Of a DNA stretch of 64,000 nt, positions 17,799 through 34,879 are shown piece after piece. The position numbers and the translations under genes were made by a program. Every line of letters begins with the position of its first letter. The stretch's first letter is position 1. The notes beneath the pieces were generated by a model. It worked only from the letters and a program-made list of their open reading frames with translations. It was not told the DNA's origin and did no database searches. The stretch comes from a bacterium. Lineage in GTDB: Bacteria > SZUA-79 > Acidulodesulfobacterales > Acidulodesulfobacteraceae. Where the stretch lies: assembly GCA_021845685.1 (NCBI GenBank), contig JAJZVN010000009.1, positions 1 through 64,000 of the forward strand, read 5' to 3'.

Positions 17799-17991
17799 AT
17801 ATAAACAATTAATTATCGGCAAATCCTGTTATGCAACATTTATTTAATTAATAATTATTTTGCTATTTAATTATTTAATTAAATTAATTATTTTTTTTAT
17901 AAACAATTATCGGCAAATCCTGTTCTGCAACATTTATTTAATTAATAATTATTTTGCTATTTAATTATTTAATTAAATTAATTATTTTTTT
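17799..17991. repeat. 94-bp tandem duplication covering the selD 3' end
   Basis: Two copies (17799-17897 and 17898-17991) that differ by one substitution (TTATGC versus TTCTGC) and a 4-bp indel. The second copy contains the last nine codons of selD including the stop; the first is a downstream echo. Each contains ATCGGCAAATCCTG, resembling the ends of the ATTGCCGATAG repeat family. Confidence 0.85.
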
Positions 17992-19026
17992 CGCTTTATT
18001 TTCTGTTTTATCCAATATTTTTCCAATTTTGTAGAGAGGTTCTCCTGCATTTTTAAATAAATTTTCAATATCGGATGTTTTATCTTCAGGAATACAAATC
18101 AAAAGTCCTCCTGATGTTTCAGCTCCAAAAGCGGCCCATACAAGACTTTCGTCAATATTTTCTGTAATATTGGCATATTGAGAAAAAAACTTTCTGTTTC
18201 GTTTTGTACCTGAAGGATTAATTCCTTTCTGTATTAATTCCAAGCTTCCGCCAATCAAAGGAATATTTTCAAGATTTAATTCGCAAGAAGTTTTACTCGC
18301 TAACATCATTTCGGATACATGCCCCGCAAGTCCGAAGCCTGTGATATCCGTCATAGCATTTACTGTTTTTAAAGAAACGGCTAATTCTGATGTTGTTTTA
18401 TTTAATTTTGCCATAGAATTTATAGCTTCGTCTAAAACAGACTGCCGTAAAAAGTCTGCAGATAAAGCGCTTATAATAAATCCTGTTCCTAATTTTTTTG
18501 TCAAATATAAAATATCGCCGGGCATAGCTCCTTTGTTAGAATATATCTCATTTATTTTGCATATTCCAGTGACGCTTAAACCGTATTTCAGCTCTTTATC
18601 GTCAACTGAATGTCCTCCGAGCAGCGCAGCGCCCGATTCGTTTATTTTATTTAATCCTCCGAGCAATATTTCTTTTAAAACATCTTTTTCAACATCGGCG
18701 ATAGGAAAGCACGCAATATTTAAAACAGTTATAGGCTGTCCGCCCATAGCATAAATATCCGACAATGCATTAGCTGCCGCTATTTGCCCGAAAACATAAG
18801 GATCATCTACTACAGGCGTAAAAAAATCTATCGTCTGAATAAGACATTTATCGTCCGATATTTTGTATATACCCGCATCGTCTTTATAATCAAAACCTAC
18901 TAAAACATTATCGTTAGGCAGAACAGGCAAATCATCAATTATTGAAGAAAGGTCCTCCGGACCCAGCTTGCATCCTCAGCCGTGAGCAGATGTCATGGAA
19001 GTTAATTTATATTTTTTATTTGTCAT
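17965..19026 (-). CDS. selD: Selenide, water dikinase; selenoprotein with in-frame UGA (Sec17)
   Basis: Makes selenophosphate from selenide and ATP for selenocysteine synthesis. Conventional translation gives only residues from MPVLPND onward (from 18930), which lacks the catalytic head. Extending upstream through an in-frame TGA (18976-18978) to the ATG at 19026 adds MTNKKYKLTSMTSAHG-Sec-GCKLGPED, 353 residues in total. Sec17 and Lys20 fall exactly where E. coli SelD has its essential Cys17 and Lys20. Later motifs include the DFFTPVVDDPYVFG loop, GGHSVDDKELKYGLSVTG and NAMTDITGFGLAGH. SelA lies 4 kb away on the same strand. The 3' end overlaps a tandem duplication. Confidence 0.95.
18949..18978 (-). 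promoter_or_regulatory. Bacterial SECIS hairpin of selD
   Basis: Seventeen nucleotides after the UGA codon the minus strand folds as GGTCC-GGA-GGACC, with an outer AAG/CTT extension. Spacing and guanines in the loop fit bacterial SECIS elements that recruit SelB. It lies inside the coding sequence, as expected for bacteria. Confidence 0.7.
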
Positions 19027-23352: not shown

Positions 23353-24819
23353 CTAGTTAGTTTCTTTAACAGCTGCTTCAATAACTATTTGGGAAACTTT
23401 TTTAAAATTATTAATTATATCATCTATATCAATATCTAAAACCGTCCTTAAATCAATTAAAAATTTATCTTCTTTAATTTTTCCAACGATAGGAATTTGT
23501 AAACTCCTAAAAATTTCGCTTAATTTTTCTGTTTCAAAAATTTTATTAGTAATGCTTAAACAGTATGTTTTAAGCTTATAATCAGGCATTGCTCCGCCCC
23601 CTACGATACTAAAATCTTCTACAATATTAATATTAAAATTATACATAGTTTTACAAATATGTTCAAGTTTTTTAATTTTATTTAAAAGTTTAAAGCCTCT
23701 TTTTTTTATTTCTGAAATATTTTGGGAAAGCAAATGAATAGTAGGTATATTTTTAATAGCATTATCTATATCTAAATATTCAAATAAAACTGCTTCAAGC
23801 GCCGCCAAAGTCATCTTGTCAATTCTGAAAGCTCTGTTCAGCGGGTTTTTTGCAATCAAATCAACATATTTTTTTTTACCTGCTATAATACCTGCTTGCG
23901 GTCCGCCAAGAAGCTTGTCTCCGCTGAACGTCACTATGTCAATTCCTGTATTGACAACCTCCTGAGCCGTAGGTTCTTTTGGAAGACCAAATTTTTCCAA
24001 TTTGATAAAACTTCCCGAACCGAGATCTTCCATTACGGGAATATTATATTTTACCCCAATTTCTACAAGTTCTTTGGAATTTACTTCATGAACAAATCCC
24101 GTCATTTTAAAATTACTATGGTGAACTTTAAGTAATAATGCTGTATTTTCATTTATTTCGGATTCATAATCATTAATTTTAGTTTTATTGGTAGTGCCGA
24201 CTTCAATAAGCTGCGCTCCGGACGCTTTCATTATATCGGGAATTCTAAACGACCCTCCTATTTCAACAAGTTCTCCTCTTGAAACTATAACTTCTTTTTT
24301 AATTCCCGAGGCAAAAGTGTTTAGCGCCATAAAAACAGCGGCGGCGTTATTATTAACCACAAGAGCGGCTTCGCAATTTAAAATTTTATTAAGTAATATT
24401 TCAATATGCGAATATCTTTTTCCTCTTTTTCCTTCTTCAAGATTAAATTCAAGATTTGAATATGAAGAAGCTATTTTGGAAACATTTTCAACTGCGGCTT
24501 TCGGCAAAATAGATCTTCCGAGATTAGTATGAATGACGACCCCCGTTCCGTTAATAACTCTTTTAAGACTAAATGAAAAATTGCCAAAATATTCTTGCAG
24601 CAAGAGTAAAAAATGTTTTATTTCAAAAATATTATCCTCAGGTATTTTGTTGTTTTGCAAATTTATTTTTATTTTTTCTTTTTCTTCGGATAATATTTCA
24701 TCTAATTTATTTTTTACGACATTGTATGAATATTTGCCGATTAATTTTATAACATCGCTATCCTGCAAAATTAATTGAATTTTGGGAAATTTTCTTAAAT
24801 ATTCATTTAAATTATACAT
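23353..24819 (-). CDS. selA: L-seryl-tRNA(Sec) selenium transferase
   Basis: PLP enzyme converting Ser-tRNA(Sec) to Sec-tRNA(Sec) with selenophosphate. The PLP lysine is in TFSGDKLLGGPQAG (about residue 302). NGTGVVIHTNLGRS and NLEFNLEEGKRGKR are the N-terminal SelA signatures. 488 residues, a little longer than E. coli SelA (463). ATG start at 24819. With the Sec-containing selD 4 kb away it shows the organism decodes UGA as selenocysteine; selB and selC must lie outside the window. Confidence 0.96.
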   Translation of the reverse strand: MYNLNEYLRKFPKIQLILQDSDVIKLIGKYSYNVVKNKLDEILSEEKEKIKINLQNNKIPEDNIFEIKHFLLLLQEYFGNFSFSLKRVINGTGVVIHTNLGRSILPKAAVENVSKIASSYSNLEFNLEEGKRGKRYSHIEILLNKILNCEAALVVNNNAAAVFMALNTFASGIKKEVIVSRGELVEIGGSFRIPDIMKASGAQLIEVGTTNKTKINDYESEINENTALLLKVHHSNFKMTGFVHEVNSKELVEIGVKYNIPVMEDLGSGSFIKLEKFGLPKEPTAQEVVNTGIDIVTFSGDKLLGGPQAGIIAGKKKYVDLIAKNPLNRAFRIDKMTLAALEAVLFEYLDIDNAIKNIPTIHLLSQNISEIKKRGFKLLNKIKKLEHICKTMYNFNINIVEDFSIVGGGAMPDYKLKTYCLSITNKIFETEKLSEIFRSLQIPIVGKIKEDKFLIDLRTVLDIDIDDIINNFKKVSQIVIEAAVKETN

Positions 24820-34380: not shown

Positions 34381-34432
34381 AAACGCCTTTTCTTTTTATA
34401 ATTTTATATTATTTAAAGAATAAGGCGCTTAA
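34381..34432. terminator. Bidirectional terminator between gatD and the small peptide gene
   Basis: CGCCTTTTCTTT (from 34384) pairs with AAAGAATAAGGCG (34415-34427), with A/T tracts on both sides: AAGCGCC...GGCGTTTAATTT on the minus strand and GGCGCTTAATTTTT on the plus strand. It suits both convergent genes. Confidence 0.7.
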
Positions 34433-34437
34433 TTTTT

Positions 34438-34454
34438 ATGTGCCAACTGCACAT
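34438..34454 (-). promoter_or_regulatory. Candidate bacterial SECIS hairpin of the small peptide gene
   Basis: Perfect 6-bp stem ATGTGC/GCACAT with loop AGTTG on the minus strand. The loop begins 22 nt after the UGA at 34471-34473, inside the 16-37 nt window known for bacterial SECIS elements, and contains GU as in known examples. The selD hairpin in this window has a comparable spacing of 17 nt. Confidence 0.5.
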
Positions 34455-34455
34455 T

Positions 34456-34578
34456 TCACTTGCAAGATTTTCAAGAATAACATGAATCTTTAATCCCATA
34501 ATTTTCCATTAGATTCAAGTAAAATTCTTCAGCATCTAAATTTTCCAACATAGGTTTTTCGTAACTGATCTTCTTCAT
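34456..34578 (-). CDS. Candidate selenocysteine-containing small peptide (35 aa to UGA, 40 aa if UGA is Sec)
   Basis: The ATG at 34578 has a near-perfect Shine-Dalgarno (AAAGGAGGTGA, 34585-34595) at good spacing, so translation is likely. Conventional reading gives 35 residues starting MKKISYEKPMLENLD and ending KDSCYS at TGA (34471-34473). If that UGA is read as Sec, translation continues KSCK to a second TGA (34456-34458), giving the tail C33-Y-S-U36-K-S-C39-K: overlapping CxxU and UxxC motifs. A hairpin follows at SECIS spacing. YEKPML recalls the YxxPxL leader motif of peptides bound by PqqD-like RRE proteins, suggesting a RiPP precursor. Codons (AAG, ATC, TTG) are less A/T-biased than neighbours. 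No modifying enzyme is adjacent. The ORF is likely real; the Sec reading is a hypothesis. Confidence 0.55.
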
Positions 34579-34584
34579 GTTTTT

Positions 34585-34595
34585 TCACCTCCTTT
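34585..34595 (-). promoter_or_regulatory. Strong ribosome-binding site of the small peptide gene
   Basis: AAAGGAGGTGA on the minus strand, six to eight nucleotides before the ATG at 34578. It is among the best Shine-Dalgarno matches in the window, and it supports the tiny ORF as a translated gene. Confidence 0.8.
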
Positions 34596-34713
34596 GGTTA
34601 AAGTATCATTCAGCTTATAAAATGAAAATGCCGCTGAATATATAATTATAATAAAATAATTATTCATAACTAAAGTTTATCATATAAAAAAAATATTTCA
34701 ACAAGTCAATAAA

Positions 34714-34879
34714 ACTTTAATCCTTCCATAGAAATTTATTTTATGGATTCCTGCTTACGCAGGAATGACTTAGCGAGGATTTAAACATTCACCCTTTGGG
34801 TGTCATTCCCGCGCAAGCGGGAATCCAGTATTGCTTAGTATTAAACTATCTAAAACATTTTCTATCGCAGGATTAAAGT
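34714..34879. repeat. REPIN-like element with inverted ends
   Basis: A 166-bp unit bounded by ACTTTAATCCT...CATAGAAAT and ATTTTCTATCGCAGGATTAAAGT (11 perfect terminal bases). Inside, GGATTCCTGC...GCAGGAATGAC (34745-34769) faces GTCATTCCCGC...GCGGGAATCC (34801-34826), so the whole folds as one large palindrome. This is the clearest member of the family. Confidence 0.75.

Follow-up and report, generated by a model that had tools for sequence, protein, structure and literature searches.

The closest described counterparts of the system reported here are the selenobacteriocins, in which the precursor SbtA (TIGR04081) and its partner SbtM (TIGR04082) yield RiPPs of the thio(seleno)oxazole type (Lewis et al. 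2021, cited in PMC13188914 and PMC11002830). According to PMC11002830, four hydrogens were lost from both Cys- and Sec-containing substrates on treatment with SbtM, with a thiooxazole being formed in the case of Cys. A 2026 review lists selenobacteriocin with the motif SGUG and two Sec residues and catalogs it as the only Sec-containing RiPP kind (PMC13188914), and a search of this review for CxxUxxC gave no entry. The locus described here lies in the window, which is the whole 64,000-nucleotide stretch of DNA that was analyzed. Like SbtA-SbtM, the window system combines a short precursor carrying a TGA-encoded Sec, a SECIS element directly downstream, and a SPASM radical SAM maturase. The original prediction held that no described family has this layout, which stands for the peptide itself, as it does not match SbtA, but not for the logic of the system, which SbtA/SbtM shares. 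The locus very probably encodes a selenocysteine-containing RiPP precursor that would be matured by an RRE protein and a radical SAM/SPASM enzyme, and we infer for it the modification, chemistry, and role set out below.

The gene is located on the minus strand, where the Shine-Dalgarno sequence AAAGGAGGTG (34595-34586), whose GGAGGTG is the same in most homologues, is followed by a 7-nt gap, an ATG (34578-34576), 35 sense codons, and a TGA (34473-34471). The next codons, AAA TCT TGC AAG, encode K-S-C-K and lead to a second TGA (34458-34456). All of these elements had been named in the original prediction, in which the first UGA was also read as selenocysteine. Read in this way, the gene (34459-34578) specifies a presumably translated peptide of 40 residues, MKKISYEKPMLENLDAEEFYLNLMENYGIKDSCYS-U-KSCK, with Sec36 at the first TGA. 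The second TGA is predicted to be the true stop codon and not a further Sec codon, because the loop of the downstream hairpin is only 7 nt away, which is too close for Sec decoding. The peptide has no match among the Pfam and NCBIfam profiles, and scans for promoters and terminators gave no excess over shuffled sequences. Such a gene is invisible to standard annotation, since it is 40 codons long and its TGA is called as a stop.

A translated search over 193 genomes (E below 1e-6), which had been proposed together with the original prediction, found homologues in 27 of 30 genomes from the window's family (Candidatus Acidulodesulfobacterales, an order from acid mines [PMC6776010]), and no convincing homologues were found outside this family in the same search. 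The genomes compared include the congener Candidatus Acididesulfobacter diazotrophicus AP1 (SGBB01), which places the window in a species of Candidatus Acididesulfobacter. At least one copy with TGA at exactly this codon is present in 23 genomes, four genomes have only Cys versions, and both kinds occur together in G010, G011, and G023. All 23 distinct Sec-type sequences carry TGA at the codon, and its substitute in the paralogues is always Cys (TGC or TGT), so the family has Cys homologues at the UGA position, which is a criterion for selenoproteins. Where the original prediction had warned of homologues ending with UAA or UAG at or before the Sec codon and of a downstream Cys that is not conserved, only TGA, TGC, and TGT are found at the codon, and Cys33, Sec/Cys36, and Cys39 are all invariant. 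The codons following TGA in the Sec-type set are AAA or AAG (AGA once), TCN or GAR (GCT once), and TGC or TGT, with mostly synonymous variation, and the final stop codon, which follows the Sec codon by four to five codons, varies freely among TAA, TAG, and TGA. The dN/dS ratio is well below 1: within the genus, comparison with the window copy gives a dN of 0.05 to 0.10 per site and a dS of 0.6 to 0.8 (both uncorrected proportions), and only two changes, both synonymous, separate the copies of the window and the sister species. No relative was found in viral contigs.

The perfect 6-bp hairpin with its loop 22 nt past the first UGA, which had already been noticed in the window, was confirmed at 34454-34438 on the minus strand (AUGUGC[AGUUG]GCACAU). 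Bacterial SECIS elements are said to reside in coding sequence (PMC13188914), and this hairpin lies entirely 3' of the stop codon because the Sec residue is so near the end of the peptide. The bacterial SECIS model comprises a loop of 3 to 9 nt, a stem of 4 to 16 bp, a G in the first two loop positions, a spacing of 16 to 37 nt, and an MFE at or below -7.5 (PMC13188914). The window hairpin fits this model, with 6 bp, the 5-nt loop AGUUG, a spacing of 22 nt, and an MFE of -7.8 for a 54-nt stretch; no match was found in Rfam. The folding energy of the single sequence was rejected as evidence, since a z score of 0.31 is ordinary for such a sequence and chance is not excludable from the window alone, and comparative evidence was therefore needed. 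Sixteen distinct hairpins of Sec-type genes, aligned on the loop, have 98.8% of their cells paired, compared with 87.4% in shuffles, and changes on both sides occur in three of the five pairs (e.g., AU/UA/CG/GC and CG/UA). There are 8 compensatory cells, compared with 1.4 in shuffles, and the covariation score is 0.380, compared with 0.161 in shuffles (0 of 500 shuffles), and slid controls do not exceed 0.127. Throughout the family, the loop reads AG[G/U]U and lies 18 to 25 nt from the UGA. Most Cys paralogues have a disrupted hairpin or an altered loop. In G011, one Cys copy still carries a perfect hairpin, with the very sequence found in a Sec copy of that genome, which fits an apparently recent Sec-to-Cys change. 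The paralogues at L045:8877-10779 and L064:2677-3430, of the Cys and the Sec type, adjoin probably exported proteins, one DsrE-like and one of an unassigned family (c28), and one of the Cys copies there has kept its Sec counterpart's SECIS hairpin.

The genome of the window contains selA, selB, selC, and selD. The original prediction had concluded that this genome decodes UGA as Sec from selA and a UGA-containing selD with a hairpin, and both genes were verified in the window: selA at 23353-24819 on the minus strand (TIGR00474, 580 bits; cutoff, 268) and selD at 17965-18980 on the same strand (TIGR00476, 327 bits). The latter is of the normal Sec type, with the in-frame UGA (at 18978) in the context MTSAHG-U-GCK, read through and followed by a GGUCC[GGA]GGACC hairpin. 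Absence of selB and selC from the genome would have spoken against Sec decoding; selB is present on contig C108, and a tRNA-Sec with the anticodon UCA is present on C191. If the first TGA were an ordinary stop, the product would be a 35-residue leader or regulatory peptide, and the remainder would be a 3' UTR with a regulatory hairpin. The standard code does end the ORF at this TGA, and the energy of the hairpin is unremarkable by itself, but this reading is hardly credible, as TAA and TAG never occur at the codon, the Cys paralogues continue through it, Cys39 is invariant with synonymous variation after the TGA, the compensatory hairpin sits at SECIS spacing, and the Sec machinery is present in the genome. 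A chance hairpin or TGA is excluded because the TGA is kept in 23 genomes, the hairpin has compensatory changes, and dN is far below dS. As judged by this comparison of sequences, the TGA at codon 36 is a sense codon for selenocysteine.

Clustering of the genes neighboring the peptide loci identified two products whose genes consistently precede that of the peptide, a radical SAM/SPASM protein of about 340 residues (PF04055 and PF13186) and a PqqD-family protein of about 90 residues (PF05402). The order rSAM-PqqD-peptide is found in 17 relatives, of which 12 loci were examined and five were placed by coordinates (G004, G020, G026, G027, and G029). The radical SAM proteins are 60 to 90% identical across the family, and their CX3CX2C and SPASM cysteines are invariant. 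The suggestion of an RRE/PqqD-dependent RiPP, made originally from the leader, agrees with this arrangement, and the genome-wide search for such partners proposed along with it located the pair on contig C7 (rSAM, 932-1945, 618 bits; PqqD, 617-871). The linkage of a PqqD/RRE protein and a SPASM radical SAM enzyme to the precursor, which is the criterion for RRE-dependent radical SAM RiPPs, is thus seen in the 17 relatives; the pair is unlinked in the window's genome, where no peptide was found beside it on C7. The Sec peptide and the maturase co-occur (21/2/2/5; Fisher p=0.003, a statistic that ignores phylogeny). The maturase and RRE were not detected in two Sec-type genomes with a perfect Sec peptide, G009 (97% complete, 7 contigs; peptide at C5:33449-33565, L052) and G016 (78%), nor was the pair detected in three Cys-type genomes. 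No protease or exporter consistently clusters with the peptide loci. In three genomes, the surroundings of the system (L056:11579-12984 and L045:13934-16115) include recurring GcvH-like, thioredoxin-like, DsrE-like, and hemerythrin genes, and a link to sulfur relay is possible from these few loci; a role deduced from the DsrE, GcvH-like, and thioredoxin neighbors was rejected because they are too inconstant.

In G001, G003, and G005, the rSAM/PqqD pair occupies the locus of the window, between an OmpA-family gene and the peptide. In the sister genome G002, the stretch immediately before the peptide retains 54 residues of the linked radical SAM protein (59% identity; E=9e-13). A remnant of about ten codons, FYKLNDTLTK (34593-34622, minus strand), which is too short to be telling alone, aligns with this longer remnant and runs into the Shine-Dalgarno sequence in the window. 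These remnants, set against the intact pair in the three other genomes, indicate that the linked pair was deleted from the window locus; another copy of the pair, with about 65% identity, is still present at a different place in the genome. Such a deletion in both the window and its sister genome could mean that the gene is decaying and that the window peptide is a relic of a system whose maturase has moved or been lost. This is very unlikely, as the only two differences of the peptide gene from its sister are synonymous, although the flanks have diverged and suffered deletions, and as a complete maturase pair remains in the genome. The loss of the linked pair, with the peptide intact and the second pair persisting, instead argues for a peptide that is under selection and may be matured in trans. 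Upstream of the peptide, an inverted repeat (ATTCCCGCTTGCGCGGGAAT...ATTCCTGCGTAAGCAGGAAT) at 34745-34827, with similar text near 14.2 kb, is probably a small repeat element and is apparently absent from that spot in G002.

Beyond the family, Lachnoclostridium sp. An131 has the same gene order (L154:3501-4896), with a radical SAM protein that is 43% identical, a PqqD protein, and the all-Cys peptide MMKEYTTPIITEEEEMLFTKEVWEEFSEGNWCFGCTNCNCN, which ends in WCFGCTNCNCN; biochemical work might use this gut bacterium as a cultured host. Another rSAM-PqqD-peptide system, more distantly related, is present in G002 on contig C33 (Candidatus Acididesulfobacter; L114:4988-6419) and in G030, a genome outside the family that is related at the level of domain (L073:3060-4481), with peptides ending in CRQCS-[GS]-CH-[GA]-CR (CRQCSSCHACR and CRQCSGCHGCR). 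The Lachnoclostridium and G030 systems resemble those of the family in having a radical SAM protein (36 to 43% identical), a PqqD protein, and a YxxP-leader peptide ending in CxxCxxC, but their peptides have Cys in place of Sec. These Cys forms lend support to C-x-x-[C/U]-x-x-C as the scaffold of the core, with the kinship of the peptides suggested by position and leader and not by a significant E value.

In the proposed mechanism, SelB and tRNA-Sec would decode the UGA under the control of the hairpin just past the stop codon. The product would consist of a leader (Y-x-x-P-[LMVI]...AEEF) and the short core S-C-Y-S-U-K-S-C-K. The PqqD-type RRE protein would bind the leader and present the core to the radical SAM/SPASM enzyme, which may modify C-x-x-U-x-x-C, most plausibly at Sec, to form a seleno-oxazole or a selenoether/thioether cross-link. 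The pair on contig C7 would act in trans in the window's genome. A genuine Sec peptide could also act in thiol/selenol redox reactions or metal binding without being modified, with the rSAM/RRE link being real for some paralogues only. Its retention without the maturase in G009 and G016 and the likeness of C-x-x-U-x-x-C to redox motifs lend this reading some weight, yet it is unlikely in view of the RiPP-type leader, the constant gene order in 17 genomes, the pair retained in trans after loss of the linked copy, and the Firmicute relative with the same three genes. For the modified product, we lean toward an intracellular redox or metal-binding role over that of a bacteriocin, because the core is strongly conserved and no exporter, immunity gene, or signal peptide was found in the shared part of the clusters; the "peptide redox agent" of the original prediction is a guess. 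Conservation across the whole order suggests a housekeeping molecule and not a weapon. The product may, tentatively, be a lineage-wide selenium-containing, ribosomally synthesized redox cofactor or soft-metal ligand of Candidatus Acidulodesulfobacterales, made in trans in the window's genome by an unlinked RRE/radical SAM pair and with its SECIS element in the 3' UTR.

Among known systems, the PqqD-type RRE-dependent radical SAM RiPPs (PQQ, mycofactocin, GeoRSP, ACGX, and SynChlorMet) share with the window family the PF05402 PqqD protein, the SPASM radical SAM enzyme, and the YxxPxL-like leader. The window family differs in having Sec in the core and in scoring below the curated cutoffs of every named radical SAM and PqqD family. 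Among the NCBIfam families shown, the radical SAM protein is under each cutoff, with the best scores being those for ACGX (150 bits; cutoff, 400) and SbtM (145 bits; cutoff, 350), and assignment to the ACGX system (TIGR04340) was rejected with 150 and 120 bits. Ranthipeptide and sactipeptide enzymes (PapB, StsB, and AlbA) are likewise SPASM radical SAM proteins acting on a Cys-rich peptide, and the radical SAM protein of the window family scores 76 to 88 bits against them (cutoffs, 340 to 850). Membership in SbtA was rejected, as neither the peptide nor the whole genome gives a match to TIGR04081 (cutoff, 30.5 bits), and SGUG is absent. Membership in SbtM (TIGR04082; 516 positions) was also rejected, since the radical SAM proteins reach 107 to 145 bits over model positions 198 to 515 only, compared with 466 to 686 bits for two true SbtM proteins in other genomes; beside true SbtM in G116 and G176, no convincing SbtA was found. 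SbtA has SGUG and two Sec residues, whereas the window peptide has CxxUxxC (CYSUKSC) and one, and the maturase of the window family, at about 340 residues, lacks the N-terminal 198 or so residues of SbtM. In addition, the window family has a separate PqqD protein and a hairpin beyond the stop codon. On these sequence features, namely no TIGR04081 match, CxxUxxC in place of SGUG, a maturase far below the cutoff, the separate RRE, and the hairpin past the stop, the window system is a family distinct from SbtA/SbtM, of a kind that is itself already known, and SbtM-like chemistry may serve, by analogy, as the best available model for it. As a second, independent Sec-RiPP family, in which Sec paralogues are paired with Cys ones, at times within a single genome, it raises the question of what selenium adds to radical SAM peptide chemistry, and it represents a new branch of the barely explored class of selenium-containing RiPPs.
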